Shown here one piece after another: positions 31,960-46,962 of a stretch of DNA of 64,000 bases; the first letter of the stretch is position 1, and the number at the start of each line of letters is the position of its first letter. The DNA comes from Myxococcales bacterium 68-20. GTDB lineage: Bacteria > Myxococcota_A > Polyangia > Polyangiales > Polyangiaceae. A model generated the notes under the pieces. The model was not told where the DNA came from, searched no databases, and saw nothing but the letters and a program-made list of their open reading frames with translations. The DNA is taken from contig MKVQ01000009.1 in assembly GCA_001899635.1 (NCBI GenBank), forward strand, positions 1-64,000, given 5' to 3'. The translations under genes were made by a program, and so were the position numbers.

Positions 31960-33255
31960 TCACTGAGGCCGGCTCGGCAGGCTCGTCGGATTGGCGCCCT
32001 TCAGCTGCCTGATCGAGTCCCAGAGGAGCTGCTTCGCGTAGGTCGGGTTGTGAACGCCGAAGTCCTTGCTCCGGGCGATGATGAGATAGTTGTAGAGCGC
32101 ACCTGCCTCGGGAGCGGCGGCAGGGCTTCCGGGGCGGACCGTGTCGAGGTGGAACTGGTTGTCGGCGAGGTCCTCGTCCGAGAGGTTCGCGTAGGGCGCC
32201 GCGGCCGAGCGCGTGAGCCTGCCAGCGTCGTTCAGCAGCGTGCGGAGCTCGCGGAGGCCACTGCGCACGATCGACTGACCACCCTGGATGTCGAACGTCG
32301 TGCCCGTGTACTGCGTGTGGCACGTCTTGCAGAACGCGACCGTCGGCTTCATCGTGTGGTCGGGCGCGTTCGCGTTCGTCGCGACGGGCTGCATGTGGCA
32401 CGACACGCAGGCGTTCGCGACCGTGGCGTGGGCCGAGCTGCCGTATGTCTGACCTGCGAAGTGGTAGCCACCCTTGCCGGAGTAGACGTCCGCCTGCGGC
32501 CCGTCATGCGGGCCCCAGCGCGTCGAGAGCGAGTTCGACGCCGTGATGTAGAGCGAGACGTCCTTGCGCGACTTGTGACAGAACACGCAGACGTTGCCCG
32601 CGCGGTAGGCGAGCTCCTGCCCGGTCGGGATGCCTGCCGAGGCGTCAGCGGTCTTCTCGAGGATGACCGTGTCGTTCACGCCGCCCGGGACGCGCAACGG
32701 AGCCTGACCGGCGAGGTACTTCCCGGTGACGTGCGGGTCGTTGGTCGAGTCGAAGGCGTGGCAGGTCGAGCAGTGGATCCGACCGATCGTCGTCGCACCG
32801 CCGTAGCCGATCTCCGTGATCGCGCCCGACGCCGCCTTGAAGTTGATGTGGCCCTTGGCAACGTCCGCCGGAACGCCCGCGTCGGGAGCAACGGTGTACT
32901 TGTTCGCGACGCGCTGCTGGATACCGTCGATCGCGTGGCAGTTTCCGCACGCGCCCCCGCCGACCTCGTTGTTCTGCGGATGAGAGTGGTTGCTGAAGCG
33001 CCATTGATCGACGACGCCACCGAAGGTATGGCACGGCGTCGTGCACGCTCCGCTGAGGACACCGCCGCCGTCGGCGACCGTGCCGGGGGTGCCTTGAGCC
33101 CCCGGCGGCCCCGCAGGCCCCGGCGGCCCGGCCGGACCGGTGGCTCCCGGCTCGCCTTTCGCACCGTCCTCTCCACTACCGCACGCGGCGAGGCCTGCTC
33201 CCGCGCCCACGACGCCGACGATGAATGCGAGTCCGATGAAGCGGGTGAGAGTCAT
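31960..33255 (-). CDS. Multiheme cytochrome c lipoprotein with collagen-like stalk
   Basis: 431 residues. Lipobox LAAC (Cys25) is followed at residues 31-60 by ten Gly-X-Y triplets, a collagen-like segment. The rest holds five CxxCH sites (CGNCH, CSTCH, CVFCH, CVSCH, CKTCH) and a CxxxCH (CTTPCH), with several extra histidines for axial ligation. It is a predicted electron carrier on the outer membrane. ACGGAGG four bases before the ATG at 33255 supports this start strongly. It is divergent from the 13-site cytochrome, with which it shares the short intergenic region. Confidence 0.88.
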   Translation of the reverse strand: MTLTRFIGLAFIVGVVGAGAGLAACGSGEDGAKGEPGATGPAGPPGPAGPPGAQGTPGTVADGGGVLSGACTTPCHTFGGVVDQWRFSNHSHPQNNEVGGGACGNCHAIDGIQQRVANKYTVAPDAGVPADVAKGHINFKAASGAITEIGYGGATTIGRIHCSTCHAFDSTNDPHVTGKYLAGQAPLRVPGGVNDTVILEKTADASAGIPTGQELAYRAGNVCVFCHKSRKDVSLYITASNSLSTRWGPHDGPQADVYSGKGGYHFAGQTYGSSAHATVANACVSCHMQPVATNANAPDHTMKPTVAFCKTCHTQYTGTTFDIQGGQSIVRSGLRELRTLLNDAGRLTRSAAAPYANLSDEDLADNQFHLDTVRPGSPAAAPEAGALYNYLIIARSKDFGVHNPTYAKQLLWDSIRQLKGANPTSLPSRPQ

Positions 33256-33310
33256 GATCCTCCGTGAAGCGGCGTCGCGCATTGGGCTCGGCCTTGCATC
33301 GACCGCGCCA

Positions 33311-34828
33311 GTGCGTCCGCTCCTTATCATGCTCGCGCTTGGCGGTGTGTTCGCTGCTTGCGAGACGCCCCGCGAAACGCGACGCGAGACGACTACGTAT
33401 ACGGGCCAGGTCCAAGCGCTGCTCGAGGCGCGATGTCTGCGCTGCCACGCAGGTCTTGCGCCGGCGGGCGGATGGTCGGCCGGCTCCTACCTCGAAGCGA
33501 TCGGGTGCACGGACTCCGGTGACCCCGCCACGATCGCGCGGGATGGAGCAGGGACCGCGCCGATCACGGCTGTGCTTGATCGGAGCGACCATGCGGGGCT
33601 CGTGAGCCATGCCGAACGCGCCGTCCTCTCTTCCTGGGTCTCCGCCGGAGCGCCACGAAGCGGCGGCGGCGTGCACGGAGCGGCGTTCGCCGACCCGCGC
33701 TCTCCGGAGAGCCACGGCAGGCTCCTCCGAGCGAAGCACTACGCCCCGATGCTCGATGCGAACGATCCCGACGCGTGCGGCACTTGCCACGAGGGGGTCG
33801 CGGCACGCCGAGGCGACGTCCGTCTCGCGGCCCCCGGTGCGCCGTCCTGCACGAGCTGCCATTCCGAGCAGGAAGGCCCGCTCGCGTGCGGCACATGTCA
33901 CGGAGACGGCGCGCGTGCCTACCCGCCCCGGAACCGTTGCTTCTTTCCCGCCGATCCCAAAGACCGCGCGCACGCCGCGCACGCCGGGACGAGCGCGTCG
34001 CGCGCCACGGGGCTCCCTTGCTCGACGTGCCATCCGGAGCCGAAGACGGGCGCGCCGGCCGGCGTCCACGCCAACGGGTGGGTGGACGTCTGGTTCGACT
34101 ACGCGGTCGCCGGACGCGAGGCGCGCTTCGACGCTGCCAGCAAGAGCTGCTCGGGCACCTGCCACGCACGCGGAGGCGCCCGGCCGGCGCCGGCGTGGAG
34201 CGATGCGCCGATGACGTGCAACGACTGCCATTCGTCGCCGCCGCCCGACCACTATCGCGGTGCGTGCACGAGCTGCCACCACGAAGCGAACGCCGACGGC
34301 ACCGCGCTCACCAAGCCCGTGCTCCACGCGAACGGCAAGGTCGACCTCGGTGACGGAAGCGGGCGCTGCGGTTCGTGCCATGGCCAGGGCGACGATCCCT
34401 GGCCGAAGACCGGCGCGCACCAGGCGCACGCCCGCCCGAAGGATGCACGCGCGGTCGCGTGCGAGACCTGCCACGCCGTCCCGAGCGGAGCCGCTCGTCA
34501 TCCCGAAGGCAAAGGCGCAGCCACCGTGCGCCTCGCTGGCCTCGCGACGCGCGGCGGACGGCGCGCCTCGTTCGATCCGGTGACGAAGACCTGCGCCGGC
34601 ACCTACTGCCACGAAGGCGCCGGAGCGCTCAGCCCGTCACCGCGATGGACCGACACGACCGCTACGACCTGCACGTCGTGCCATGGGACGCCTCCGCCTG
34701 CACCTCACGTCCAGACAACGACGTGTGGTGGCGCGGCCTGTCACGAAGGCCGTACGACCGGCCTCCAGATGACGCCGGCCGGGCGGCTCGTCCACGTCGA
34801 CGGGGTCGTCGACCGCGGCAGCCTCTGA
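33311..34828 (+). CDS. CxxCH/CxxxxCH multiheme cytochrome lipoprotein
   Basis: 505 residues. I chose GTG 33311, which gives a clean lipoprotein signal (VRPLLIMLALGGVFAAC, Cys17); an upstream ATG at 33254 would overlap the divergent gene's start codon, and ATG 33329 gives a shorter signal. Heme sites: ten CxxCH, one CxxxCH (CSGTCH) and two CxxxxCH (CAGTYCH, CGGAACH). The mixture of CxxCH and CxxxxCH in repeats with SSPPP and GTPPP spacers is known from Geobacter-type outer-surface cytochromes. Predicted to be exposed or periplasmic and to carry electrons. Confidence 0.85.
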   Translation: MRPLLIMLALGGVFAACETPRETRRETTTYTGQVQALLEARCLRCHAGLAPAGGWSAGSYLEAIGCTDSGDPATIARDGAGTAPITAVLDRSDHAGLVSHAERAVLSSWVSAGAPRSGGGVHGAAFADPRSPESHGRLLRAKHYAPMLDANDPDACGTCHEGVAARRGDVRLAAPGAPSCTSCHSEQEGPLACGTCHGDGARAYPPRNRCFFPADPKDRAHAAHAGTSASRATGLPCSTCHPEPKTGAPAGVHANGWVDVWFDYAVAGREARFDAASKSCSGTCHARGGARPAPAWSDAPMTCNDCHSSPPPDHYRGACTSCHHEANADGTALTKPVLHANGKVDLGDGSGRCGSCHGQGDDPWPKTGAHQAHARPKDARAVACETCHAVPSGAARHPEGKGAATVRLAGLATRGGRRASFDPVTKTCAGTYCHEGAGALSPSPRWTDTTATTCTSCHGTPPPAPHVQTTTCGGAACHEGRTTGLQMTPAGRLVHVDGVVDRGSL

Positions 34829-34914: not shown

Positions 34915-36876
34915 TCAGTGGCGGAAGAGGTGGCAGCCCTTGCACAGCTGCGCCTCGGGCTGGTGGTTTCGCTTGTCCGCGTGGCAGCTGCCGGTGCACG
35001 TCGCCCGATCCGAACGCGGCGGCGCATGCGCGCTGTGGCATGTCTCGCACTGCGCGTGAGCGCTGACGGAGTGGAGCCCTTCCAGAGAAGGACGCGAGTG
35101 ACAGGTGGCACAGGTCGGAGGCCGCTCGACGCCCTTCGGCCCGTGCGCACGATGGCACGTGGTGCAGCCCTGCGCGGCGTTCGCGTGAAGCGCATTCGCC
35201 TTGTTGTCGTGGCAGCTCGTGCACGAAGCGTGGTTTCCGAGCGATCCCGAATGCGCATCGTGACAGCTCGTGCACGTCGCATGACCCGCATGCGCCGTCT
35301 TCGCCTGCTCAGCATGACAGCCGCCGCACGACGGCTTCGCCACCGGAGCGTGGGCAGTACCGTGACACGCATTGCAGCTCGCGTGTCCGGGCCGCACGCT
35401 CGTCGCCTTCGCTTTCTCCACATGGCATCCCGCGCAGAGGCGCGCGCCCGAGGCCGCGAGATGGAACGCGTGCGGCGCGTGGCACGAGGTGCACGCCGTT
35501 CCCTTGGCGTGGAGCCCATGATCGTCCTTCGCGCTCGTGTGGCACGAGGTGCACGCCGCCGTGCTGGCCGGCGAGGCAGGATGACCGGCATGCGGCGCCG
35601 CCTGTGACCGCGTCGCCGCCGGGGCTCCACCACGGCCGTGCGGCGCATGGCATCCGGTACACGCCTGCTCTCCCTTCGCCGAAGCGATCGCCGGGTGTGA
35701 GGGCTTCGTGCTCTCGTGGCAGCGAACGCATGCTTGTCCGGCCGACACGTTCGGACGATGGGGATCGTGGCAGCTCGAGCACTCCGCGTGCGCAGCAACG
35801 CGCGGCGTGCCGATGACCGTGACGTTCGAGTGGCAGCTCGTCGCGCACGACGACTTCGCCTCCGCCGGCGCGTGCGGCGTGTGACACCCCGTGCACGCAG
35901 CATGTCCCGCCACCGTGCTCACGGCGCGGTGGTCCGCATGGCAGCCTTCGCAGGCGCGAACGTCGGCGCGACGCGCGCGATGCGGCTCGTGACACGTCAC
36001 GCACGCCTCGTGACCGGCGACCCGCGCGCCGCGAGGGGCGACGTGCGGGGCCGTCTTCGCGAGAGCACCGAACGCGGCCCGGTGCGGCGAGCGCCCGGGA
36101 GGCGAGCCCGCCACGCCGCCGTGGGCGCTGACGTGACATCCCTCGCACGTGCCGCGAGCAGCCTCCTTGCCGGAATGCGGAGCGTGGCACATGGTGCAGA
36201 CTTGTCCCGGCGAGGCCTTACGTGGGTCGAGTTCGAGCGCGCCGACTTCCGTTAGCGCGGGCGTCCCCGCTTCGCGGACGAAGGCAAGGACCGCCGCGTC
36301 GAGCGAGAGCTCCATCGAGGCATCGACGCTCGGAGCGGGCGCGTGGGCCTCGAAACCTCCGTGCGCGGCGCTCATGCCCTGGTGGCAGGTCGTGCAGTCG
36401 GCGAGCACGGCTCGATCTTTCCCGTGCACGCTGTGGCACGCGCCGCAGGGAAGCTCGGTGGACGCATGATGATCGAGCGCAGGAGCGTCGGGCGCGCGCG
36501 TCGTGCGCGTCACGTTGGAGTGGCACTCGTTGCAGGTCGCCGCCGGCCGTCCCGCCCCGAATGCGTGGCACGACAAGCACGTCGTCGGGGATTGATCTCC
36601 GCCGCGATGGTGGGTGTCGGTCTCGCGCGCGTGACACTTCGCGCACGCGACCTCCGTGGGCGCCGCGTCCAGGCTCGTGTGGCACTCCGTGCACGCGATC
36701 TTCTTCGAGCCGACATGGAGGACGTGCATCGGCGCTTCGCGCGCCGTCTGCCAGGTCGTGGGCACCTGCTCCACCGGAGAGAGCGGTGGTGTGTAGTCTC
36801 GGATCGCGACGACCGCGAGCACCGCAGCGACCACGAGAGCGAGGACCAGGAGCGCGAGCGCGCGACGCCCCTTCAT
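34915..36876 (-). CDS. 27-heme membrane-anchored cytochrome c
   Basis: 653 residues. One N-terminal membrane segment (residues 5-27, LALLVLALVVAAVLAVVAI) without a cleavage site, then a long chain of heme sites: 25 CxxCH and two CxxxCH (CATSCH, CTGSCH), with spacing of about 15-35 residues. Many sites come with HAxCxxCHxPH or GHAxCxxCH, as in tandem-repeat cytochromes where each heme gets a histidine from a neighbour. The protein may form a nanowire-like periplasmic bridge. The ATG at 36876 overlaps the previous stop (ATGA), which fixes the start. Confidence 0.9.
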   Translation of the reverse strand: MKGRRALALLVLALVVAAVLAVVAIRDYTPPLSPVEQVPTTWQTAREAPMHVLHVGSKKIACTECHTSLDAAPTEVACAKCHARETDTHHRGGDQSPTTCLSCHAFGAGRPAATCNECHSNVTRTTRAPDAPALDHHASTELPCGACHSVHGKDRAVLADCTTCHQGMSAAHGGFEAHAPAPSVDASMELSLDAAVLAFVREAGTPALTEVGALELDPRKASPGQVCTMCHAPHSGKEAARGTCEGCHVSAHGGVAGSPPGRSPHRAAFGALAKTAPHVAPRGARVAGHEACVTCHEPHRARRADVRACEGCHADHRAVSTVAGHAACTGCHTPHAPAEAKSSCATSCHSNVTVIGTPRVAAHAECSSCHDPHRPNVSAGQACVRCHESTKPSHPAIASAKGEQACTGCHAPHGRGGAPAATRSQAAPHAGHPASPASTAACTSCHTSAKDDHGLHAKGTACTSCHAPHAFHLAASGARLCAGCHVEKAKATSVRPGHASCNACHGTAHAPVAKPSCGGCHAEQAKTAHAGHATCTSCHDAHSGSLGNHASCTSCHDNKANALHANAAQGCTTCHRAHGPKGVERPPTCATCHSRPSLEGLHSVSAHAQCETCHSAHAPPRSDRATCTGSCHADKRNHQPEAQLCKGCHLFRH

Positions 36877-37925
36877 TGCGCGTGGCAAGCCCGGCAAGGC
36901 TGGTCGCGCGTCATGTCCAACGCGCTCGCGAAGCCTCGACCATGAGGGTTACCGCCGGGACCACCGACGCGGTGGCAGCCGACGCAGAGCGCCTCGCCCG
37001 CGCCGCCGTGACAGCTCGCGCACGACATCGGATCCATGCGCGCGGCGCGTCCGTGCTCGCCGCCACGCGCGCGAACCCAGTCGGGCGGATGCGGGTTCCG
37101 CGAGATCCCGCCACCGAACGCAGAGCGCCCGCGCTTCGCGTGGCAGTCGAGACAGAAGCGCTCGCTGTCGTGACACGTCGTGCAGAGCCCCGGGTTCGAG
37201 CGCGCCTCGTCCGAGTGGCGCGACGCGAACCCAGCGCGATGGAGACCGGTCAGGCTCGGACGATCGAAGCCGAGCTTCCACGGAAGCGCGGCGACGGTGA
37301 TGCCATGGCAGCTCGCGCAGAAACCCTCTCCGTGACACGTCGCGCACAGATCGCGCGCAGATGCGGCGCGGACGCCGTGCTCGCGGACGAAGTCGCCCTC
37401 GTGGAAGACATGGCTCGACGGCCGCGCGAGCTCGGAGGGCAGGTCGACGTGACAACCTTCGCAGTCGCGCGTCGTCCACTGATCCTTGTGGTTGTGGCAC
37501 GAGAGGCACTGCGCCATCGGCGGACGCAGCGTGGTCTGCTCCGACTTGCCGGCCGCGGCATGGCAAGGCACGCATTGCCCGCCAAGCTTCGGCACGTGCC
37601 TCTCGTGCGAGAAGCGAAGGTGCTCGCGCGCGAGGCGGTTCTCTTCGCGCGTGTGGCTCTGGCCATGGCATGTCCCGCATGGCCGCGAGTCGTGCGGGCG
37701 CGTGTGGCAGCCGACGCACTTGGCCGGCTCGGGGATGTGGAGGGGACCGGTGTCGCCGGCGTGCGTGATCCCTTCGTGACACGTCGTACAGCCGATGCCG
37801 GCGAGAGAGTGGCTTCGGTGCTCGAACGGACGTTGGGTGTCGCGCGGCTTGATCCCGAGCAGCCCCGCGCAGGCCGCGAGCGACAGGAGGGACACGAGAA
37901 GCGCGAAACGCAGGAGCGGGCTCAT
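36873..37925 (-). CDS. 13-heme cytochrome c lipoprotein
   Basis: 350 residues. Lipobox LAAC (Cys19), then 13 CxxCH sites (CTTCH, CVGCH, CGTCH, CVPCH, CLSCH, CEGCH, CATCH, CASCH, CTTCH, CLDCH, CASCH, CVGCH, CRACH). Histidines such as FEHRSHSL and RFSHERH are probable distal ligands. Its start overlaps the barrel gene's stop and its stop overlaps the 27-heme gene's start, so all three are made together. In porin-cytochrome complexes a multiheme cytochrome sits inside or against the barrel; this is the candidate. Confidence 0.9.
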   Translation of the reverse strand: MSPLLRFALLVSLLSLAACAGLLGIKPRDTQRPFEHRSHSLAGIGCTTCHEGITHAGDTGPLHIPEPAKCVGCHTRPHDSRPCGTCHGQSHTREENRLAREHLRFSHERHVPKLGGQCVPCHAAAGKSEQTTLRPPMAQCLSCHNHKDQWTTRDCEGCHVDLPSELARPSSHVFHEGDFVREHGVRAASARDLCATCHGEGFCASCHGITVAALPWKLGFDRPSLTGLHRAGFASRHSDEARSNPGLCTTCHDSERFCLDCHAKRGRSAFGGGISRNPHPPDWVRARGGEHGRAARMDPMSCASCHGGAGEALCVGCHRVGGPGGNPHGRGFASALDMTRDQPCRACHAQ

Positions 37926-39145
37926 GGTGACGTACGCCCCCTCACCGGCGGCTCTCCGAACGCATACGAGACGCGCGCGAGCGCGTGCAACGACTCGCGA
38001 TACTCCGGGCCCACCGACGCTTCGAGCGCGGTGGCGACTTCCCATCCGCTCGGCGACCGCCATGCGATCGCTCCGAGCGCCCAGGGCCAGAGCGCACCTC
38101 GTCCACGCGGCTCGTCGGGGCGTACGAGCTCGATCTCCGTGGCGACGCGAAATGCGCTCGAGAGCGGCAACGAGGCGATCGCTCGCGCGCCGACCCACCG
38201 CGCGCCGGCGAAGTCCACGCGGCGCGCCTCGAGCCCGATCGAGCCGGCCCACTCGTCGTCGAGCGCGAGCGTCGCTCGACCGAGGCCCTGGCCACCGACC
38301 TCGTCCCCTTGCACCTGCACGCTGCCCGTCGCGACGAGCTCGAGGCGCGGGAAGGCACGCCAGCGCGCGGTGGCGCCGGTGCTCGTCGCCGCGAAATCGC
38401 CGAGGACGGAGAAGAGCGACGTCCTCGGCAAGAGCCGCCCGGGGGACCGGTGCGTCGTGAAGACCTCCGCGCGAACGTCGTCCTTTTGCACGCTGACGGA
38501 GGCGAGCGCATCGGTCGGTGCACGCGCGATGACGTCGAATGCGGCACGAGCCGCCGCGGTGAGCCACGGCGCGGGCGTCAGGGCGAGATCGGCTCCGACC
38601 TCCTCGTCGTCGCGCTGCCCGCCGCGCCGGCGGACTGCGTAGGAACCTCCGAAGGTCGCAACATCGCCGACCGACTGACCGAGACGCCCGCCGGCCGTCC
38701 AGTCGAAGGTGTCGTAGGCGAAGCCGCGAACGACGGGGACACCTCCGAACGCCTCGACCGTCGTCCCGCCGAACGCGCGCATGAGCCCGCGGACGCCGTC
38801 CAAGTGGACCGGCCGCACCGCCCCCATCGTGACGATCATCCTGCCCGTCCGGAGCTCGGAGCCCGTCGCCGCATCGCGCGCGCGCACCGACAGCGTGACC
38901 ACGTCACCGGTCGCGCCGACCGGTTGCGAACCACCGGTAGCACCGAGCCACGTCACCGTCTCCGCGGAAAGCCAGGGACGGAGACGGTCTTCACCGCTGA
39001 GGACCACCAGTCCGACGGGCGACCGAGTCTGCACCAGCGCATCGCCACGCAGGCGAAGCGGCTCGGCGATGGCCGGCCTGGCCCAGGCGAGCGCGACCGC
39101 GAGAACGAGCGCGGCGTCGATCTTGCTCCTGGTAAGAAAGGACAT
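37922..39145 (-). CDS. Outer-membrane beta-barrel, partner of the cytochromes
   Basis: 407 residues. A cleavable signal peptide (LVLAVALAWARPAIA, cut near residue 27) precedes a beta-rich protein with repeated alternating strands (TVEAFGGVPVVRGFAYDTFDW; ARWRAFPRLELVATGSVQVQGDEV; WEVATALEASVGPEYRESLHALARVSYAF). Size is near that of Geobacter Omb-type porins and far below MtrB or PioB. It has no heme site. It is first in a three-gene coupled operon with two multiheme cytochromes, hence the conduit proposal. The start codon lies on the same CATG as the start of the divergent gene. Confidence 0.75.
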   Translation of the reverse strand: MSFLTRSKIDAALVLAVALAWARPAIAEPLRLRGDALVQTRSPVGLVVLSGEDRLRPWLSAETVTWLGATGGSQPVGATGDVVTLSVRARDAATGSELRTGRMIVTMGAVRPVHLDGVRGLMRAFGGTTVEAFGGVPVVRGFAYDTFDWTAGGRLGQSVGDVATFGGSYAVRRRGGQRDDEEVGADLALTPAPWLTAAARAAFDVIARAPTDALASVSVQKDDVRAEVFTTHRSPGRLLPRTSLFSVLGDFAATSTGATARWRAFPRLELVATGSVQVQGDEVGGQGLGRATLALDDEWAGSIGLEARRVDFAGARWVGARAIASLPLSSAFRVATEIELVRPDEPRGRGALWPWALGAIAWRSPSGWEVATALEASVGPEYRESLHALARVSYAFGEPPVRGRTSP

Positions 39146-39809
39146 GGTCGCGGAGAGCGGAATCGACTGGATAGGTTGGGCGTCAGCGGCGAGCGCAGTG
39201 GCCGCCGCGGGCATCCTCGTCATGCATCTTGTGCGCCGGCCGAGCCTGGCGGGCGAACGGGGACGTAACACGAAACTCTGGCTGCTTCTCGGCCTTGGTG
39301 TCTTCCCGATCACGTCGGCGGGGACGGCGAACATCGCCGGCTTCAAGGCGACCCAGTCACGCGAGTTCTGCGGGTCCTGTCACGTGATGGAACCTCACGC
39401 CGGGGACTCCAACGATCCGAACAGCATCTCCCTCGCCGCGGTGCACGCACGGAACCAGACCTTCGGGCACGACAACTGCTACGCGTGCCACAAGGACTAC
39501 GGCATGTACGGCTACGTGCTGACGAAGATGGGCGGCATGCGTCACGTCTACCTCTACCTCACCGAGTACCACGACATGCCGCTCGAGGAATCGAAGCACG
39601 ACATCCGTATCCTCCGCCCGCTTCCGAACGCCAACTGCATGGCCTGCCACACGACGACCGCGCCCCGCTGGCTCTCGATCGGCGACCACGCGTCCTCGCT
39701 CGAGGCCGTCCGCAACGGGACGGTGTCGTGCGCGAGCGCGGGCTGCCACGGCTACGCGCATCCAATGACGAAGCTCGGCAAGGAGCTCGACGCGGGAGCG
39801 CTGCAATGA
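39144..39809 (+). CDS. NapC/NrfH-type tetraheme quinol dehydrogenase
   Basis: 221 residues. Two hydrophobic segments (near 8-30 and 44-66), then GFKATQSREFCGSCHVMEPH, the NapC/NirT/NrfH hallmark. Heme sites: C76-H80, C112-H116, C165-H169 and a CxxxxCH (C196-ASAG-C201-H202). The family takes electrons from membrane quinol and passes them to periplasmic cytochromes. This fits the divergent 27-heme/13-heme/barrel operon as its electron source. ATG 39144 is preceded by AAGAAAGGAC; it shares CATG with the opposite start codon. Confidence 0.87.
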   Translation: MVAESGIDWIGWASAASAVAAAGILVMHLVRRPSLAGERGRNTKLWLLLGLGVFPITSAGTANIAGFKATQSREFCGSCHVMEPHAGDSNDPNSISLAAVHARNQTFGHDNCYACHKDYGMYGYVLTKMGGMRHVYLYLTEYHDMPLEESKHDIRILRPLPNANCMACHTTTAPRWLSIGDHASSLEAVRNGTVSCASAGCHGYAHPMTKLGKELDAGALQ

Positions 39810-40069
39810 AGCTCGGCGCGGCGCTGGCGCGCGTGAAAGCAATCCCGAGCGAGAGCCTCGTGCGCGCGGCCTGCATCCTCGGCCTCGTCGCGCTGCCGCT
39901 CATGGTCGGCTCCGTGTTCGTCCCGACTGTGTGGCCGGTGCTCGTCGCCCTCTCGGTCGGCCAGGCCCTCGGTACCCTCTCGTTCGTTCTCTACCTCGTC
40001 GCCATCGCGCGCGACCTCGACATCGTGCGACGCCTGCGGTCACCGAGGAGACACGAAGAAAGACACTGA
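39806..40069 (+). CDS. Small two-TM protein coupled to the tetraheme gene
   Basis: 87 residues, starting at an ATGA overlap with the quinol dehydrogenase stop. Two membrane segments (near 22-43 and 47-70), a basic C-terminus (RRLRSPRRHEERH) and no heme motif. No family recognised. Position suggests an assembly or anchoring factor for the tetraheme protein. Confidence 0.65.
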   Translation: MKLGAALARVKAIPSESLVRAACILGLVALPLMVGSVFVPTVWPVLVALSVGQALGTLSFVLYLVAIARDLDIVRRLRSPRRHEERH

Positions 40070-40142: not shown

Positions 40143-40601
40143 TCAGCCGTCGATTTGATCGACGCGAGGCTCGGCGCCGAGCGCCTCGGCGTTGAGCAGC
40201 CGCTCCTCTTCGTCGGCCATGTCCTGCTCGAAGCGCTGGAAGAACCAGACGACCTCGTCCGCGAGATCTTCGACGTTCCTGACGCCGTCCTCGGCGTCCT
40301 CCACGAGCGCGACGAGCACCGAACGCTGTTCGGCGTGCTCCTGGAAGAGCCGCTCGACGCGTACGGGACCCCACGCATCCACCTCGCGCATGAGCGGGAC
40401 GATCACCTCTTCCTCGTACTGGAAGTGGCGCTCGACCTCCGTGCAGAGCTGACCAAGGACGTCCCGGATCACCGGCCGGTGCTTCTCGTCACGCTCGGCT
40501 GCGCGCGCGACGGCGATGAGCGCTCGACACAAGCTGCGCAGCACCGCGTGGTCGCTGGAGATACGCTTGCGAATTTCTACCCTCGCGATCATCGAGCTCA
40601 A
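40143..40601 (-). CDS. Hemerythrin-like protein
   Basis: 152 residues, one hemerythrin/HHE four-helix bundle. Ligands visible: H18 (SSDHAVLR), H59 and E63 (VERHFQYEEE), H89 (LFQEHAEQR); the last canonical position reads FEQDMADEEERLL, with an Asp in place of a His. Relatives bind a di-iron centre that senses oxygen or NO, or helps repair iron-sulfur centres. The start codon is TTG at 40601, supported by AAGGAGG six bases before; the first internal ATG is only three codons later. It follows the universal stress gene by 48 bases in one operon. Confidence 0.83.
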   Translation of the reverse strand: MSSMIARVEIRKRISSDHAVLRSLCRALIAVARAAERDEKHRPVIRDVLGQLCTEVERHFQYEEEVIVPLMREVDAWGPVRVERLFQEHAEQRSVLVALVEDAEDGVRNVEDLADEVVWFFQRFEQDMADEEERLLNAEALGAEPRVDQIDG

Positions 40602-40649
40602 GGCGTACCTCCTTCCGCTGACCAGGACCGTGGTGGTGAGGAGCCGCGA

Positions 40650-41099
40650 TCAAGTGCCCCTAGCTTCACGCAATGTAAGAACGGGAATCGAAGATGTGCG
40701 AACGACGCTCTCAGCGACGCTGCCGATCAGCGCCCGAGCGATGCCTCGACGTCCGTGCGTTCCCATGACGATGAGATCGGCCCCGACCTTCTTCGCGGCC
40801 GACAGCACCGCATCGCGCGGATCCGCTTGCTCGAGGAACGTGTGGAGCTCGACGTTCCGCGACGCATGTTTCTTGGCGAGCTCGTCGAGCGCCTTCTGCG
40901 CGGCGTCGATGATCCGCGACGCCATCTCGGCCGAGATCGTCATCGTGCCGTCGGGGAAGCCGACGAGCGGAAGCTCGAACGCGTGAACGACGTGCACCGC
41001 CGCGCCGAGCTTCGCGGCGAGCTCCACGGCGTAGTCGAGCGCGACACCGGCCGCTTCACTGAAGTCCGTGGGAACCAGGATGTTCTTGGGAGGGATCAT
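40650..41099 (-). CDS. Universal stress protein
   Basis: 149 residues, one USP domain: NILVPTDFSEAAGVALDYAVELA at the N-terminus and LIVMGTHGRRGIARALIGSVAESVVRTSSIPVLTLR, with the ATP-binding pattern G-x2-G-x9-G-(S/T). Probably an ATP-binding homodimer acting under stress. ATG 41099 gives the normal USP start; an upstream ATG at 41141 adds residues unlike the family. A -24/-12 promoter lies 14 bases before. It leads the operon with the hemerythrin-like gene. Confidence 0.9.
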   Translation of the reverse strand: MIPPKNILVPTDFSEAAGVALDYAVELAAKLGAAVHVVHAFELPLVGFPDGTMTISAEMASRIIDAAQKALDELAKKHASRNVELHTFLEQADPRDAVLSAAKKVGADLIVMGTHGRRGIARALIGSVAESVVRTSSIPVLTLREARGT

Positions 41100-41112
41100 T
41101 GCCTCTGCCACG

Positions 41113-41128
41113 AGCAAGGGCCTTGCCA
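41113..41128 (-). promoter_or_regulatory. Sigma-54-type -24/-12 element before the USP gene
   Basis: On the minus strand it reads TGGCAAG-N4-TTGCT, close to the sigma-54 consensus TGGCACG-N4-TTGCA, with the required GG to GC spacing. The predicted start of transcription is only a few bases before the ATG at 41099, so the mRNA would be almost leaderless. The element is also a near-perfect palindrome (GCAAGG-G-CCTTGC). Confidence 0.5.
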
Positions 41129-41250
41129 CGGCTGAAAACACGGCAGTTCCTCACAGCGCCGTAGCCGGAGACGCAACTTTTGCGCGCACGTGCAGAATGC
41201 GCGCTCCCCACCGCCCAGCTGCGCACCAGAGCTTCGACGCGTTCGCCCCG

Positions 41251-41266
41251 TGGCAGTCGTTTTGCA
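41251..41266 (+). promoter_or_regulatory. Sigma-54-type -24/-12 element before the CBS gene
   Basis: TGGCAGT-N4-TTGCA, with the invariant GG and GC at correct spacing. It ends 11 bases before the ATG at 41277, which again implies a leaderless message or a later start (ATG 41355). Confidence 0.55.
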
Positions 41267-41276
41267 CTTGCTTTCG

Positions 41277-41717
41277 ATGATGAGACCGAGCGCGGATCCG
41301 AACAGCTCGAGCGAACCGAGCTACATCTCCCGGACCACGAAGATCCGTCAGGTGATGACGCTCTCCCCGCACACCATTGGCAGCGACCAAAAGCTGACGC
41401 TCGCTCACAAGATGATGCGCGAGTACCACCTCCGTCACCTCCCCGTGCTCCGAGCCGGCGAGCTCGTCGGAGTCCTCTCCGAGCGCGACCTCTTCTTCCT
41501 CGAGTCCGTTGCCGGGGTGGACGTCGACATCGACGCGGTGTCGGAGGCGATGACCGCGGACGTCTACACGGCGCATCCGGAAGACTACGTCCGCGACGTC
41601 GCGCGCGTCATGTCGCTTCGGAGGTACGGCTGCGCCGTCGTGATGGAGGATAGCCGGCTCCTCGGCATCTTCACAGCCACGGACGCGCTCCGGTATCTTG
41701 CCGAGGCTCTCGTCTAG
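41277..41717 (+). CDS. Two-CBS-domain protein
   Basis: 146 residues. First CBS motif: IRQVMTLSPHTIGSDQKLTLAHKMMREYHLRHLPVLRAGELVGVLSERDLFFLES; second: VSEAMTADVYTAHPEDYVRDVARVMSLRRYGCAVVMEDSRLLGIFTATDALR. Such proteins sense adenine nucleotides. Starts are possible at ATG 41277, ATG 41280 or ATG 41355 (VMTLSP); the position of the -24/-12 element favours a later one. Related to the CBS protein at 29426. Confidence 0.87.
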   Translation: MMRPSADPNSSSEPSYISRTTKIRQVMTLSPHTIGSDQKLTLAHKMMREYHLRHLPVLRAGELVGVLSERDLFFLESVAGVDVDIDAVSEAMTADVYTAHPEDYVRDVARVMSLRRYGCAVVMEDSRLLGIFTATDALRYLAEALV

Positions 41718-41889
41718 CCTCCCGCCCCGAACCCACGTGGGCTCGGACTCGGGAACGACTCGTGCGTGCTGCGTCACCGGTCGACATCGCCGCTGAATCA
41801 CGCGGTCCTCACCCCTCACGTGGGACCGCGCGATGCGACGGCGAACCCCTGGACCCGGCACACGAGCGCCACGCCTGAAGAGGAAACTG

Positions 41890-42312
41890 ATGAAGAAGAT
41901 CCTTACCTGCCTCGATACTTCACCGCGTGCACCGCACGTACTGGCTGCTGCAGTCGATCTGGCACGGCGCACCGGCGCCCGGCTCACGCTCTTCCGGAGC
42001 GTCGGCCTCCCGCCCGAGCTTGCGCATGACGACGTCTTCGGTGTCAGCCCGAACAAGCTCGTCGACAAGCTCCTCGACGCCGCCAAGGAGAGCCTCGCGC
42101 GCCACCGCGCCGATGTCCCGCCGGAGCTCCTCGACGGAATCGAGGCCCGTGTCGGCGTTCCGTGGAACGCAATCTGCGCCGAGGCCACCGCGATCGAAGC
42201 CGACCTCATCATCATCGGCTCGCACGGCTACGGCGGCATCGACCGGATCCTCGGCACGACGGCGGCGAAGGTCGTCAACCACGCCGACCGCTCCGTCCTC
42301 GTCGTGCGATGA
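41890..42312 (+). CDS. Universal stress protein
   Basis: 140 residues. KKILTCLDTSPRAPHVLAAAVDLARRTGARLTLFRSV at the start and DLIIIGSHGYGGIDRILGTTAAKVVNHADRSVLVV at the end give the USP fold and ATP site. GAAGAGGAAACTG precedes the ATG. In front, 41718-41889 holds no gene but a CCCACGTGGG palindrome (41732-41741). It is convergent with the NnrS gene. Confidence 0.9.
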   Translation: MKKILTCLDTSPRAPHVLAAAVDLARRTGARLTLFRSVGLPPELAHDDVFGVSPNKLVDKLLDAAKESLARHRADVPPELLDGIEARVGVPWNAICAEATAIEADLIIIGSHGYGGIDRILGTTAAKVVNHADRSVLVVR

Positions 42313-42333
42313 CGGTGCGCGCCTCGTCTACCC

Positions 42334-43554
42334 CTACCCCGCGCGCCCGTCGGCGCGTGGGGTGACGAGGATCGGCGCGTAGACGATCGCGTAGACCACG
42401 AAAGACGCGCTCCAGAGCACACCGGCAAAGACGAGCGACGCGAGGTACTGCTCCGGCAGGAGGGGCGCGGCGACCCGGATGGCGGCCGCGAGCGTCATCG
42501 CCGCGAACGCCGCGACCATCGGTGTCCCCACCGCGAGCGGTCGTCCGGTGTGCCCGAGCGCAACGCGCGCCATCATCCCCAGAGTGAGCGCGCCGATGGC
42601 CCCCGCCGTCAGCGCGTGCGTCGCCATCGACGAATAGACGCCGCCGGTGGCCTCCCCCGCCGCACGAAGGAGCAGCCCCAGCGGGATCCAGGCGTAGCCG
42701 ACGTGGAGGATCCAGAGCAGCGGCTGACGGAGCACGTGCTGGGTCCCCCAGCGGAACGCACGAGCTACCGCGACCACGCCTGCGAGGCCCGCGAGCACCG
42801 CGAAGATCGCCCGATCGAGCGCGAGGCCGCCGAACGCATCCATTGCGGTCAGCAACGCCATGAGCCCGATCGTGAGCGCCTCGAGCGCCGGGATCGATCG
42901 GATCCCGTCACGGCCCGTGGCGTTCCGGGTGAACATCGGCACCACGCGTCCCGCGATGATGAGCATGAGCAGGACGACGACGTCGACTGCGACGAGAGCA
43001 CCTCGCCGCTGCCACCCGGGCGCGACGCCGAGCGTATCGAGGTGCGTCATCAGGTTGGCCGCGAACAGCGCCGCCAGCACGGCGAGCATCACGAAGTTGC
43101 GCCGATTCCGAGTCGCCACGAGCGGGCGAGCGAGCACGACCGCAAGCGCGGGAAGGAACGCGAGGTCCACGATCACGGGCACGAGCGGCGGCAGGAGCGA
43201 GGCCATGCTCATCGCGACGCGCCCCGCGATCCAGAGCACGCCAAGCAACGCGAGAGGCGTTCCGACGGCGGTCTCGCGCTGGGTCCAGTTGCCGACCGCG
43301 GTCAGGAGGAAGCCGGCAATCACAGCGACCGTGAAGCCGAACACCATCTCGTGCGCGTGCCAGTACATGGGCGAGAAGCGGCTCGCCGGCTGGATGACTC
43401 CCTCGAGCGCCAGCAGCCAGAGCGGCACCATCAGCGCGCCGAAGACGGAGGCCAGGAGGAAGAACGGACGGAAGCCCTTGGCGAAGAGCGAAAAGCGCCC
43501 GCCCGAAGACGACGACTGCGAAGGAGCCCCGTTGATCGATAGTGCGTGTGCCAT
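42334..43554 (-). CDS. nnrS: NnrS family membrane protein
   Basis: 406 residues, about 12 membrane segments. Hallmarks are FAKGFRPFFLLASVFGALMVPLW, YWHAHEMVFGF, GFLLTAVGNWTQR, and GHTGRPLAV. The conserved histidines (HAHE) may bind heme-copper or iron. NnrS members protect cells from nitric oxide, keeping iron from being trapped in dinitrosyl complexes. It starts 3 bases after the hemerythrin-like gene stops, so the two share a message. Confidence 0.93.
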   Translation of the reverse strand: MAHALSINGAPSQSSSSGGRFSLFAKGFRPFFLLASVFGALMVPLWLLALEGVIQPASRFSPMYWHAHEMVFGFTVAVIAGFLLTAVGNWTQRETAVGTPLALLGVLWIAGRVAMSMASLLPPLVPVIVDLAFLPALAVVLARPLVATRNRRNFVMLAVLAALFAANLMTHLDTLGVAPGWQRRGALVAVDVVVLLMLIIAGRVVPMFTRNATGRDGIRSIPALEALTIGLMALLTAMDAFGGLALDRAIFAVLAGLAGVVAVARAFRWGTQHVLRQPLLWILHVGYAWIPLGLLLRAAGEATGGVYSSMATHALTAGAIGALTLGMMARVALGHTGRPLAVGTPMVAAFAAMTLAAAIRVAAPLLPEQYLASLVFAGVLWSASFVVYAIVYAPILVTPRADGRAG

Positions 43555-43557
43555 GAC

Positions 43558-44049
43558 TCACCCCAGGCGGTGCAGCGGTCCGTCGTAGTACTTCGCGAGT
43601 GGAACGGGGGGCTGCGCGTGCATCCGCGCGACGATGGCCGGTGCCTCCTCGCCGGCGAGCGCGTCACACTCGGCGTAGAGTCCATGTGGCCCCTCCTCGA
43701 GATCGTTGTGACTCCCGAGCACCTCTCGCAGCGAGGCGATGATCGCGCGACTCGGCGAGCGGCAGAGCAGCTTGGCGATCGCGCTGTGGTCCACCCGAAG
43801 CTGCGCGGCCATCGGGAGCGGCTCGCCCCGCTTCGCTCGCGCGAACGGGAGGAGGACCTTCTCCTCCATCGCGATGTGTCGGAGCAGGCCGCCGCGAAAC
43901 CGCGTGTACGCGTCCTCGTCGATCGTCCCGTCGTCACGCTCGGCAGCGCCGAGGAGGCGGTCGAGCTCGACGTGGTCCGCCGTCATCATCGTCTCGATGG
44001 GTCCGACCGATGGTGCAGCCGTGCTGGGGCGAGTGACCATGCCCGCCAC
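43558..44049 (-). CDS. Hemerythrin-like protein (operon with nnrS)
   Basis: 163 residues with a full set of ligands: H26 (ADHVELD), H58 and E62 (HIAMEEKVLLP), H88 (VDHSAI), H114 (LGSHNDLEEGPH) and E118. Predicted di-iron protein that binds oxygen or NO. The ATG at 44049 is close to a -24/-12-like element; the ATGATG at 43989 (MMTADHVEL) may be the true start, giving 143 residues. Directly upstream of nnrS. Confidence 0.85.
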   Translation of the reverse strand: MAGMVTRPSTAAPSVGPIETMMTADHVELDRLLGAAERDDGTIDEDAYTRFRGGLLRHIAMEEKVLLPFARAKRGEPLPMAAQLRVDHSAIAKLLCRSPSRAIIASLREVLGSHNDLEEGPHGLYAECDALAGEEAPAIVARMHAQPPVPLAKYYDGPLHRLG

Positions 44050-44052
44050 GCA

Positions 44053-44067
44053 TCAAGCGTCGTGCCA
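44053..44067 (-). promoter_or_regulatory. Weak sigma-54-like element before hemerythrin-nnrS
   Basis: On the minus strand it reads TGGCACG-N4-TTGA. The -24 half is perfect, but the invariant GC of the -12 half is GA, so it is only a candidate. Placement relative to the start codon is like that of the two stronger elements. Confidence 0.3.
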
Positions 44068-44178
44068 CGAGCCCGTCGCGCAGGTCTCGGACTTCGTTGG
44101 AGCTCCGCGATCGAGCTCCGCCGCTCGACGCACCACTTGCGCGCCGCCGCAGATCCTGCGCCGGCGCCGTCGTCTCGC

Positions 44179-45171
44179 TCAGCGCGCGACGAGGACGAGG
44201 GCGTCGTCGTTCGCGCGCCCGAAGCGCTCGATGATGCGCTGGGCGATGACGATCGGATGCTGGCGTAGCAGCGCCAGCTCCCCCTCGATCGACAGCCGCG
44301 ACCCGATGCCGTCGGTGGCGAGCACGACCAGATCGCCGTCCCCGAGCGCGACGGTCTCGCTCCGCGGCTTTGCGGGCGGGCGCACGCTTCCACCGATGAC
44401 GGCAGACGAGCCACCGAAGCGGCGTGCGCTTCGCGGCGAACAGACCTGCACGTCGATGTTGCCGACGGAAGCCGTCTCGAGCGCCGATGTGTCTTCTGCT
44501 ACGCGAGCGATCGCCATCACGACGCCTCGAGTGCGCCCCAGCTCGCCGTGAGCGGCATCGAGGATGGCAACGGGCGTCTCGCTCGCGCGCTCGAAGAACA
44601 CCTTCATCGCGGCGTGTGCAGCTTCGTGTGCCGGCGGGCCGTGACCGAGACCGTCACACACGCCGAGGACGAGGGCCCCGTCGATCCGACGGAACGAGGC
44701 GTGATCGCCGCTGACCTTCTCGCCGGCGATCGGTCGCCCGTAGACGCCTACCTCGCGACGGCGAGGAGCCGCTCGATCGAAGAGACGGGCCACGATCCGC
44801 GTGCCTTCGCCGAGGCGGACGTCGAAGTCGACCTCGGACGACAGGCGGCGCACGCTGCCGATCCCGACGCCGAGCGTCCCCTCGGCGCGCGGAAGCGCAT
44901 CGAGGGCCGCCGCGACGTCGACCAGGCCAGGGCCGCGATCCGCAGCGATGAGCTCGAGCCCAAGATGCTCGCCTCTCGTGACCGCGCGGGCCGCGATGCG
45001 TCCGCCGCGCGCGTGGCGGAGGTGGTTGCGGCCGATCTCCGTCGCTACGAGCAATGCGCGGTCGGTGACCTCGGACGGGACGGAGACCTCGCTCGCGACC
45101 GCGCGGACGCGATCGCGAACGACGGTGAGGGAGGCCTCGTCGAGCACGAAGACGGCCTCGAGATCACGCAT
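44179..45171 (-). CDS. HATPase - SpoIIE/PP2C phosphatase fusion (RsbX-like)
   Basis: 330 residues. Residues about 10-130 form a GHKL ATPase like RsbW/RsbT (LLVATEIGRNHLRHARGG, AADRGPGLVD, GVGIGSVRRLSS). Residues about 145-328 form a PP2C-type domain (RIDGALVLGVCDGLGHGPPAHEAAHAA, VVLATDGIGSRLS), with the metal aspartates. It would reset phosphorylated RsbR and RsbS, the job of RsbX in Bacillus. ATG 45171 has GAGGAG five bases before and lies 11 bases after the rsbT stop. Last gene of the stressosome operon. Confidence 0.85.
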   Translation of the reverse strand: MRDLEAVFVLDEASLTVVRDRVRAVASEVSVPSEVTDRALLVATEIGRNHLRHARGGRIAARAVTRGEHLGLELIAADRGPGLVDVAAALDALPRAEGTLGVGIGSVRRLSSEVDFDVRLGEGTRIVARLFDRAAPRRREVGVYGRPIAGEKVSGDHASFRRIDGALVLGVCDGLGHGPPAHEAAHAAMKVFFERASETPVAILDAAHGELGRTRGVVMAIARVAEDTSALETASVGNIDVQVCSPRSARRFGGSSAVIGGSVRPPAKPRSETVALGDGDLVVLATDGIGSRLSIEGELALLRQHPIVIAQRIIERFGRANDDALVLVAR

Positions 45172-45182
45172 CCACTCCTCGA

Positions 45183-45596
45183 TCAGAACCGCTTCCACTT
45201 GGTCACCGTGACGCGCGTCCCCTCGCCCACGACCGACTCGATGACGAAGACGTCCACGAGCCGCTTGCTCCCCGAGAGCCCGAGCCCCATCGACCGAGCG
45301 GTGCTGTAACCGCCCGAGAGGACGCGCTGGATGTCCGGGATTCCGGGCCCCGAGTCGACGAAAGCAATCCGGATGCCCGTGCGAAGCCCATCGGATACCT
45401 CCTCGATCGTGGCGCTCCCCCCGTGCCCATGGACGAGGACGTTGCGACCGAGCTCGCTGGCCGCGGTCGTGATCGCCGCGATCGCGAACGTGTCGAACTT
45501 GCGCATCTCTGCGATCTCGCGCACGCGACGCCGGACCGAGAGGACGTCGTCCTCCGACGCAAGCCTCATCGAGTGAACCGCGAGGACCTCGAGCAT
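45183..45596 (-). CDS. rsbT: RsbT-like switch kinase
   Basis: 137 residues, small GHKL ATPase: ASELGRNVLVHGHGG (N box), VDSGPGIPDIQRVLSGGYSTARSMGLGLSGSKRLVD (G1 and G2 boxes). In stressosomes RsbT phosphorylates RsbR and RsbS, leaves the complex and activates the next protein in the chain. Its ATG shares one base with the rsbS stop (TGATG). Confidence 0.9.
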   Translation of the reverse strand: MLEVLAVHSMRLASEDDVLSVRRRVREIAEMRKFDTFAIAAITTAASELGRNVLVHGHGGSATIEEVSDGLRTGIRIAFVDSGPGIPDIQRVLSGGYSTARSMGLGLSGSKRLVDVFVIESVVGEGTRVTVTKWKRF

Positions 45597-45970
45597 CAGG
45601 TCCCTCGGCGTTTGGGCACGACATGGCCGAGCAGCTCGAGCCCGTCGTCCACGTTGAGCGCGGTTCGCACGCCCTCCATCGCATACCCCATGCGGATGAG
45701 CGTGGCCGAGACCTCGGGGCGCATGCCGACGAGGACGGTGCTGGTGCCCATGAGCTTCGCCATCCGCCCGGTCTCGGCGACGATCCGGGCGACGTAGCTG
45801 TCGACCGTGTCGAGCCCGCTGATGTCGATCAACAGCCCCGTGGAGCCGGTCTTCTCGATCGCCTCGAGCACGTCTTCCTGGAATGCGTCGGCGACGGCAT
45901 CGCGCAGGTCGATGTGGACGGTCGTGAGGAGCGTGGGACCGATGCGGAGGATGGGGATCTGGCCCCGCAT
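45596..45970 (-). CDS. rsbS: RsbS-like stressosome scaffold (STAS)
   Basis: 124 residues, one STAS domain: GLLIDISGLDTVDSYVARIV. S58, in VDSY, matches the phospho-acceptor Ser59 of Bacillus RsbS. It co-assembles with RsbR. Start ATG 45970 overlaps the rsbR stop by one base (TGATG). Confidence 0.92.
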   Translation of the reverse strand: MRGQIPILRIGPTLLTTVHIDLRDAVADAFQEDVLEAIEKTGSTGLLIDISGLDTVDSYVARIVAETGRMAKLMGTSTVLVGMRPEVSATLIRMGYAMEGVRTALNVDDGLELLGHVVPKRRGT

Positions 45971-46962
45971 CACACAGGCGTCCCCACAGGCGTGACGGGG
46001 ACGGGCGACGCGGGGGGCGCGGCCGATGCCCCCGGCGTGATGGCCGTGATCGCCTTGCCGACGATACCGAGCGCAAGCTCGATCCCGTCGCTCAACCGGC
46101 TCACGGTGTGCATCGTCGAGACGTCGACGCCGAGCTGCACCATCGTACGCGCGACCTGCGCGGTGATCCCGGTGAGGATCGTCTGCGCGCCGAGCAGACG
46201 CACGGCAGCGGTCGTCTTGAGGAGGTGGTCGGCGACGCGCGTGTCGACGACGGGTACGCCGGCGATGTCGATGATGATGCACTTCGCCTGGGTGTCGACG
46301 ACGTGGAGCAGGACGCTCTCCATCACCTGCTGCGCGCGATGGCTGTCGAGCGCTCCGACGAGCGGCAAGAGCAGGACGCGATCGTAGACGCGGATGACCG
46401 GCGTCGAGAGCTCCCGAATCGCTGCCTGATGACGGCCGAGCGCATCGAGGTTCGCGGCGATGTACGTGTCGATCGCCAGCGCGACGTCGAAGAAGACGAT
46501 CCGCTGGATGCTCCCGAACGCCTCGCGAACGGCGGCCTCGTCCTTCAGCTCGTCGTAGAGCCGGTCGAAGATGAGCTGCAGGTACTGACGGTACGCCCCG
46601 AGGTACCACTTGGGCGCGAGCCCGATCCGCTCGTGAGCGGCGCCGACGCGCAGGCGATCCTCGACGTACGCGGCATCGCAGCGACCGCTGAAGAGGCCGA
46701 GGAAGTAGTCGCGCTGGGTGCTCTTCACGCGCCGGATGGTGGCCTCGTCACCGAAGAACTTGAGCGTCTCCGGGTGACCGAGGAGCAGCGCGTAGAACTC
46801 CTCGACGATGCCGTCGGTGACCTTCTCCGCGAACGGCCGGAGCGCGGCGAGGCGAACGAGGTCCTCGTCGCTGAGCTTGAAGAACGCGCGGCGGCTCCGA
46901 ATCTCGGCCTCGTCAAGGGCGAGAATCGTCATGTACTTGCGATGATCGGTCATGTCCCTCAT
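45970..46962 (-). CDS. rsbR: Globin-coupled RsbR stressosome sensor
   Basis: 330 residues. Residues about 20-175 are a sensor globin: LRVGAAHERIGLAPKWYLGAYRQY contains the proximal His110 of globin-coupled sensors. Residues about 185-300 are a STAS domain with VPLVGALDSHRAQQ... wait-free motif pairs: S207 (position of Thr171 in Bacillus RsbRA) and T241 in VVDTRV (Thr205). Heme in the globin should sense O2 or NO and set the kinase RsbT free. Start ambiguous between ATG 46962 and ATG 46953. First in the four-gene operon; divergent from the histidine kinase with 44 bases between. Confidence 0.9.
   Translation of the reverse strand: MRDMTDHRKYMTILALDEAEIRSRRAFFKLSDEDLVRLAALRPFAEKVTDGIVEEFYALLLGHPETLKFFGDEATIRRVKSTQRDYFLGLFSGRCDAAYVEDRLRVGAAHERIGLAPKWYLGAYRQYLQLIFDRLYDELKDEAAVREAFGSIQRIVFFDVALAIDTYIAANLDALGRHQAAIRELSTPVIRVYDRVLLLPLVGALDSHRAQQVMESVLLHVVDTQAKCIIIDIAGVPVVDTRVADHLLKTTAAVRLLGAQTILTGITAQVARTMVQLGVDVSTMHTVSRLSDGIELALGIVGKAITAITPGASAAPPASPVPVTPVGTPV

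Follow-up and report, generated by a model that had tools for sequence, protein, structure and literature searches.

A putative modular porin-cytochrome conduit with a 27-heme membrane-anchored cytochrome in Myxococcota

Introduction

Among the described porin-cytochrome conduits closest to the locus presented here, the Pcc clusters of Anaeromyxobacter consist of two genes, which encode a porin and a periplasmic cytochrome of 338-344 amino acids (aa) with 12 heme motifs (14 in Kuenenia) (PMC4245776), and PCC3 pairs a porin with a long periplasmic cytochrome (median of 21 hemes), for which an ability to span the periplasm has been proposed (PMC5566968). We analyzed a window of 64,000 nt (the whole stretch of DNA, positions 1 to 64,000 of contig MKVQ01000009.1) from Myxococcales bacterium 68-20, whose genome assembly (GCA_001899635.1) comprises 11.9 Mb in 52 contigs. 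Within this window, five neighboring genes encode an outer-membrane β-barrel, a 13-heme lipoprotein, a 27-heme membrane-anchored cytochrome, a NapC/NrfH-type protein and a small membrane protein. The original prediction, made from the DNA alone, had read them as an electron conduit from quinol to the cell surface.

The gene content supports this anatomy, and we consider it reasonably probable that the locus encodes a modular trans-envelope conduit that carries electrons from quinol to the outside, a path reconstructed from gene content, motifs, a predicted barrel and genetic linkage.

Results

The operon for the barrel, the 13-heme lipoprotein and the 27-heme anchored cytochrome is present and coupled as had been predicted. 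On the minus strand, the barrel gene (37922-39145; 407 aa with a signal peptide) is followed by the gene for the 13-heme lipoprotein (36873-37925; 350 aa, 13 CxxCH motifs, lipobox Cys19), the proposed plug or wire within the barrel, and then by the gene for the 27-heme cytochrome (34915-36876; 653 aa, 25 CxxCH and 2 CxxxCH motifs, an N-terminal transmembrane (TM) anchor and Pfam c7/c3 domains), the proposed periplasmic electron cable, with each gene overlapping the next by 4 bases. On the plus strand, the gene for a tetraheme NapC/NrfH-type protein, the probable quinol dehydrogenase (39144-39809; PF03264), is followed by that of its proposed partner (39806-40069), an 87-aa protein predicted to have two TM helices; the partner gene overlaps the NrfH stop codon. 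Genes were called from codon statistics, translations and inspection of start sites; the NapC/NrfH-type gene, omitted by the gene caller owing to its overlap, was picked up through its translation and Pfam. The divergent start codons of the barrel and NrfH genes share a single CATG (39144/39145), leaving no intergenic room for promoters; a divergent overlap is also seen in one related locus (L110), there between the open frames of NrfH and the large cytochrome. We ruled out that the heme motifs arose by chance: in 1000 shuffles per protein, at most three CxxCH motifs were obtained (mean 0.45 for the 27-heme and 0.18 for the 13-heme protein), far below the real counts.

The expectation that these genes would be conserved together was borne out across genomes. 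We scanned genome contigs with the 13-heme alignment and used the best 80 of 120 relatives, which together with the window gave 81 loci; by title, 68 of the 80 relatives belong to Myxococcota, three to Pseudomonadota, one to Actinomycetota and one to Bdellovibrionota, and seven are without a phylum. The barrel had a match in 80 of the 81 loci, and in 79 this match lies directly upstream of the 13-heme gene on the same strand; the two exceptions are L073, which is cut at its 5´ side and has no barrel match, and L064, where the barrel match lies beyond the distance range. All 12 barrel loci of a first survey likewise contained a 12-13-heme frame. A relative of the 27-heme protein (the big cytochrome, scored as present at a profile score of at least 240 bits) was detected in 46 of the 81 loci and is the next gene downstream in 42 of these; in the remaining four it lies elsewhere in the locus (L031, L097 and L102) or its open frame runs on (L047). 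NrfH-like genes were detected in 39 loci, and the 87-aa protein, which had no match in Pfam, in 36, in every case alongside NrfH on the same strand of that locus. Among the 46 loci with well-covered flanks (at least 3.5 kb downstream and at least 5.5 kb upstream), 27 have both the big cytochrome and NrfH, 15 have neither, two have only the big cytochrome (L055 and L068) and two only NrfH (L079 and L089). In L061, as in L055, the stretch seen includes the big cytochrome and gives no NrfH match.

Of 140 genomes drawn evenly from the phylum, 16 were positive for the big cytochrome and 47 for the 13-heme family (both at E 1e-30). For 14 of the 16, a 13-heme gene lies within ~5 kb on the same contig; of the other two, G077 has the two genes on separate contigs, and G093 lacks a 13-heme match at this threshold.

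The barrel, whose identity had been a guess in the original prediction, gained support from structure prediction. An AlphaFold2 model built from a 44-row alignment comprises an N-terminal helix and 22 strands (predicted local distance difference test (pLDDT) 87.6, predicted template modeling score (pTM) 0.79), and we take the protein to be, by predicted fold, a 22-stranded outer-membrane β-barrel. The best VIA-align matches of the model were TonB-dependent receptors, which have 22 strands (Z up to 19.8, root-mean-square deviation 4.7 over 340 residues), and Foldseek returned generic outer-membrane barrels; MtrB was absent among the 50 matches listed by each program. Searches with the sequence gave no match to Pfam or NCBIfam families at E 0.01, by which assignment to the MtrB type was rejected, nothing in PDB sequences below E 0.09 and no match in plasmids.

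For the 13-heme lipoprotein, we aligned eleven proteins with 29-52% identity to that of the window. The lipobox Cys19 is invariant in all eleven and, outside the CxxCH motifs, ten histidines are invariant and one is nearly so; these 11 residues are candidate second ligands for most of the hemes. Against PDB, the top match of this profile was the c7-type protein 3ov0 (E 3.4e-25), and a weak match (E 6e-4) was obtained with chain A of 6r2q, which we take to be MtrA, the search table labeling that chain otherwise. The window's protein had no match to TIGR03508 (MtrA/DmsE) at E 0.01. Its nearest named relatives, at 86-87% identity, come from metagenome-assembled genomes (MAGs) titled Labilithrix sp. 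The window's genome also carries a second, distant pair of barrel (37 bits) and 13-heme (483 aa) genes (L109 9600-12675; G000:C1, about 222100-225200) with no large cytochrome alongside, and similarly scoring 13-heme relatives are present in other genomes of the family.

We compared the heme register of the big cytochromes in an alignment of 38 rows, hand-picked from 47 candidates; truncated and divergent rows were omitted and so fall outside the heme counts, and the start codons of the relatives were set by rule and may be off. Twenty-three heme positions are common to all 38 proteins. A two-heme unit at alignment columns 981/1009 is present in 32 rows, such units at three further sites were seen in 8, 9 and 3 rows, with no row combining two of these sites, and two rows have one additional N-terminal heme, giving totals of 27 hemes in 20 rows, 26 in two, 25 in ten and 23 in six. 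As read from the motifs of this alignment, a predicted 27 hemes is arrived at in three different ways, with a two-heme unit at any one of three sites. On a tree computed without the optional-heme columns, the four two-heme units need 2, 3, 2 and 2 changes, gain and loss being indistinguishable. The notion that the total of 27 is held constant was not supported, as the variance in optional hemes equals that of shuffles (permutation P 0.485), and the mutual exclusion of the three alternative modules is only suggestive because the modules follow clades.

Cytochrome wires extend by 7-9 Å per heme; 27 hemes would correspond to ~20 nm, near periplasm widths. Proposed wire cytochromes have 22-39 residues per heme (PMC5566968), and the 27-heme protein, at 24.2 residues per heme, falls within this range, which speaks for the proposed cable. 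The best PDB match of the big-cytochrome profile was the 16-heme cytochrome 1z1n (E 1.9e-22). The 27-heme protein had been described as tied to the inner membrane; this agrees with the TM anchor of the window's protein but is not supported as a conserved rule, since about 17 of the 38 relatives have a lipobox in place of the plain TM helix found in about 21, the window's protein included (scoring by script gave 22 anchors of the TM type and 16 of the lipoprotein type, and L073 is a lipoprotein by eye). The anchor type switches repeatedly between the two, with 7 changes on the tree as scored. A 42-heme relative of the large cytochrome is encoded near smaller multiheme proteins in L111 (8736-11873; G093).

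The divergent NapC/NrfH-type gene, predicted along with its small membrane protein, is present, with one departure from the family. Proteins of the NapC/NrfH/NirT family have a heme-1 CxxCHxM signature and four CxxCH motifs. The signature was found in all 39 NrfH-like proteins, but the fourth heme motif is Cx4CH in 38 of the 39, so that the window's protein has three CxxCH motifs and one Cx4CH rather than four CxxCH. It passes PF03264 (40.9 bits vs a cut-off of 24.1) and matches NrfH of PDB 2j7a (E 1.3e-6); its score against the NrfH equivalog TIGR03153 (37.4 bits) is below the cut-off of 134.2.

Other arrangements of the same genes were noted in relatives. Minicystis rosea DSM 24000 (L054, complete genome) encodes, on one strand, an OmcA/MtrC decaheme protein (TIGR03507, 442.9 bits vs a cut-off of 209.3), a GSu-type cytochrome, the barrel, the 13-heme protein, a 26-heme protein, NrfH and the small protein. 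In L110, the genes for NrfH and the small protein adjoin a divergent big cytochrome gene, and 19.9 kb of sequence contain no barrel match; in L113, L097 and L102 this trio is found beside a more distant barrel/13-heme pair. A 33-34-heme relative directly follows a 9-heme cytochrome in L112, L115, L116 and L022, as does a 27-heme relative in L031, where Rieske and cytochrome b genes (Pfam) lie ahead of it. In L068, the big cytochrome gene is followed by molybdopterin-family and NrfD-family genes. As the big cytochrome often occurs with quinol-oxidizing genes and once without a barrel (L110), we read it as a cable that would lead from the inner membrane to the barrel. One MAG record (bin.11) has the complete conduit twice, on separate contigs (L029 and L030).

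While all five genes of the predicted locus were found at 34915-40069, the set appears to be larger: two further multiheme proteins encoded next to them (31960-34828) probably belong to it. The first (33236-34828, plus strand) is a 10(+3)-heme GSu_C4xC/C2xC cytochrome (TIGR01904, 66.6 bits vs a cut-off of 27), probably a surface protein of the same system. By tblastn (E 1e-8) it has matches in 60 of the 80 relative loci, although the weaker matches perhaps reflect other multiheme cytochromes, and a gene of the GSu type (at least six CxxCH and at least one Cx4CH) is present in 40 of the 46 well-flanked loci. The second (31960-33255, minus strand) is a collagen-like 6-heme lipoprotein with five CxxCH motifs and one CxxxCH, a probable surface cytochrome, with tblastn matches at the same threshold in 15 of the 80 loci (the weakest perhaps being other cytochromes); it adjoins the conduit in the nearest relatives. 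Its score against the OmcA/MtrC model was 15.3 bits (cut-off 209.3), and a match to cytochrome c552 was sub-threshold (21.1 bits vs a cut-off of 24.1). PF22113 gave three weak matches elsewhere in the genome and none in the window. Directly upstream of the barrel and 13-heme genes of L099, L101 and L103, we also noted a gene for what is likely a giant surface cytochrome of another lineage, a protein with 28 CxxCH and 7-8 Cx4CH motifs (~1290 aa in L018 and L019, which are readings of the same loci).

Beyond the small protein gene lies a neighborhood of oxygen- and nitric oxide (NO)-related genes (40143-46995, identified by Pfam). Genes at 40143-44040 encode two hemerythrin-domain proteins, two Usp proteins, a CBS protein and NnrS; the first hemerythrin also occurs in L024 and L025, and for NnrS and the second hemerythrin tblastn found nothing in the flanks retrieved for the 80 relatives, some of these flanks being short. 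A stressosome-like cluster follows (44179-46995), with a SpoIIE phosphatase carrying an ATPase domain, an RsbT-like ATPase, a STAS protein and a protoglobin-STAS protein (45970-46995, minus strand); homologues of the protoglobin-STAS and RsbT-like proteins are encoded near the conduit in L026 as well. These genes possibly serve regulation, outside the conduit proper, and their proximity suggests use of the conduit under low oxygen, the neighborhood being only partly seen in relatives. The genome has six COX1-family genes, one of which shares the window's contig, and these fit a mainly aerobic or branched respiratory chain; the description of the host as probably aerobic is in keeping with them, though anaerobic use is still compatible.

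Discussion

We propose that quinol in the inner membrane would be oxidized by the tetraheme NapC/NrfH-type protein together with its small two-helix partner, and that the electrons would pass to the 27-heme protein, which, anchored in the membrane at its N-terminus, would carry them across the periplasm. The 13-heme lipoprotein, held in the 22-stranded barrel, would take them next, and they would exit through the barrel to surface cytochromes (the 10(+3)-heme GSu_C4xC and the 6-heme collagen-like protein, or an OmcA/MtrC decaheme protein in relatives) and finally to an outside acceptor. The docking order, the direction of electron flow and the bridging of the periplasm by the 27-heme chain are what we infer from this arrangement. 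More tentatively, and with somewhat less than even confidence, we suggest that Myxococcota possess a separable "cable module" composed of a quinol dehydrogenase (NrfH-type plus small protein, or a cytochrome b/9-heme set) and one very long membrane-anchored cytochrome, in which 23 core hemes are fixed and 27 can be made in three ways, as if length were set by periplasm width, such that no soluble carrier would be needed between the inner membrane and the barrel. A fixed chain length matching the periplasm is an idea at this point, not a result.

Several observations weigh against the proposed cable. The co-occurrence of the big cytochrome and NrfH in the 46 well-flanked loci (Fisher p 3e-8) is inflated by kinship. 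On the 13-heme tree every big-cytochrome locus falls in one 51-row clade (support 97); in the other clade, of 30 rows and with loci titled Archangium and Myxococcaceae among them, the big cytochrome is absent and three rows have an NrfH-like match; the big cytochrome and NrfH together amount to 2 changes and 2 independent pairs on this tree. Because the co-occurrence rests on so few independent events, the p value is not to be taken at face value. The AlphaFold2 model of the 27-heme protein is poor (pLDDT 67, pTM 0.37) and uninformative as to periplasm spanning. In L118, L121 and L125, a relative is encoded with no barrel, 13-heme or NrfH match nearby, and in L117, L119, L120 and L122, 30-heme relatives follow the 13-heme gene with no recognized quinol module. 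As these 30-heme relatives sit with the barrel pair alone, they shift a little weight from the cable to an alternative in which the same conduit exists, but the 27-heme protein is an outer-membrane or surface cytochrome, acting as an extracellular antenna, and soluble periplasmic cytochromes provide the bridge. In Escherichia coli, lipoproteins with Gly or Ser at position +2 go to the outer membrane, while +2 Asp is the inner-membrane retention residue. Gly or Ser is found at this position in several of the ~17 big cytochromes with a lipobox, consistent with a surface location, and in PCC3 the most heme-rich cytochromes are extracellular (median of 34 hemes vs 21 for the periplasmic ones; PMC5566968). 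Even so, we regard a surface location of the 27-heme protein as unlikely, given the plain TM helix of the window's protein and the majority of its aligned relatives, the +2 Asp of the lipoproteins in the window's own clade (L029, L030 and L033) and the case of L110, where the big cytochrome has NrfH and the small protein as neighbors and no nearby barrel gene.

We give slightly less credence again to the same anatomy running inward, with electrons taken up from an outside donor such as Fe(II) into the quinone pool. Sequence does not tell direction, and for an Fe(II) oxidizer CymA of the Mto pathway has been proposed to work as a quinone reductase (PMC6295460); the oxygen/NO-related neighbors and the presumably heterotrophic host, however, would better suit an electron sink. 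It seems improbable that the multiheme proteins act within the periplasm, buffering electrons or serving a nitrite or NO reductase there, with no extracellular transfer at all. The nearby genes for NnrS, hemerythrins and a protoglobin-domain protein, together with the sub-cut-off cytochrome c552 match of the 6-heme protein, would be in line with such a role, but the barrel gene is coupled to the 13-heme lipoprotein gene in almost every locus, cytochromes of the GSu or OmcA/MtrC type accompany the conduit, and NnrS and the second hemerythrin were without matches in the flanks fetched for the relatives.

If the outward conduit is real, part of the Myxococcota, a phylum chiefly known for aerobic predators, owns a complete respiratory wire to the outside, and some of these supposedly air-breathing predators could wire themselves to minerals or other cells. 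One polypeptide could then stand in for diffusing periplasmic cytochromes in extracellular electron transfer. As the whole set is carried by M. rosea DSM 24000, a strain that has a DSM number and a complete genome sequence, covalent bridging of the periplasm by a heme chain is directly testable.

The outer-membrane half of the locus is very similar in anatomy to Pcc. The Pcc clusters of Anaeromyxobacter and Geobacter likewise have a porin gene adjoining a periplasmic c-type cytochrome gene (PMC4245776), as found here in 79 of 81 loci together with the 22-strand model, and the 12-heme cytochrome from Anaeromyxobacter, also a myxobacterium, is close in size (338-344 aa, a range that covers Kuenenia as well) to the 13-heme protein of 350 aa. 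By its description, Anaeromyxobacter Pcc (Adeh_3392 and its porin) would match this half in anatomy, and perhaps in descent too. In contrast to Pcc as described, the locus adds a membrane-anchored cytochrome of 23-27 hemes, a NapC/NrfH-type protein and a small two-helix protein. PCC3 shares with the locus a porin, very heme-rich cytochromes with few residues per heme that were suggested to be capable of spanning the periplasm, and an inner-membrane redox protein (PMC5566968). Its own porins, however, are mostly much larger, with up to 42 predicted strands compared with 22 in our model, and its inner-membrane protein is a five-helix putative di-heme b-type protein rather than a tetraheme NapC/NrfH-type protein (PMC5566968); no frame within positions 27000-50000 of the window has the WX3HX13H motif of that protein. 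A periplasm-spanning heme-rich cytochrome was already anticipated by the PCC3 work (PMC5566968), and the earlier statement that known conduits use other architectures was too strong, Anaeromyxobacter Pcc (PMC4245776) and PCC3 (PMC5566968) being alike in part.

The Mtr, Mto and Pio systems (MtrCAB, MtoAB-CymA) resemble the locus in combining a barrel and a multiheme cytochrome with a NapC-family quinol dehydrogenase (CymA), and the Minicystis relative additionally has an OmcA/MtrC surface decaheme protein. They differ in that the barrel and the 13-heme protein match no MtrB or MtrA/DmsE model at E 0.01. Mtr systems use small periplasmic carriers, whereas a single large cytochrome is encoded here. 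HmcA-like 16-heme and c3-type cytochromes include the best PDB relative of the big-cytochrome profile (1z1n); the big cytochrome differs from them in its 23-27 hemes, its membrane anchor and its linkage to the barrel and NrfH. As far as our searches of open-licence PMC papers show, this gene set seems undescribed. The system therefore appears to be a real, and apparently undescribed, variant of porin-cytochrome conduits, whose apparently new features are the pairing with a NapC/NrfH protein of the Cx4CH type plus small partner, the spread through Myxococcota and the modular heme register.

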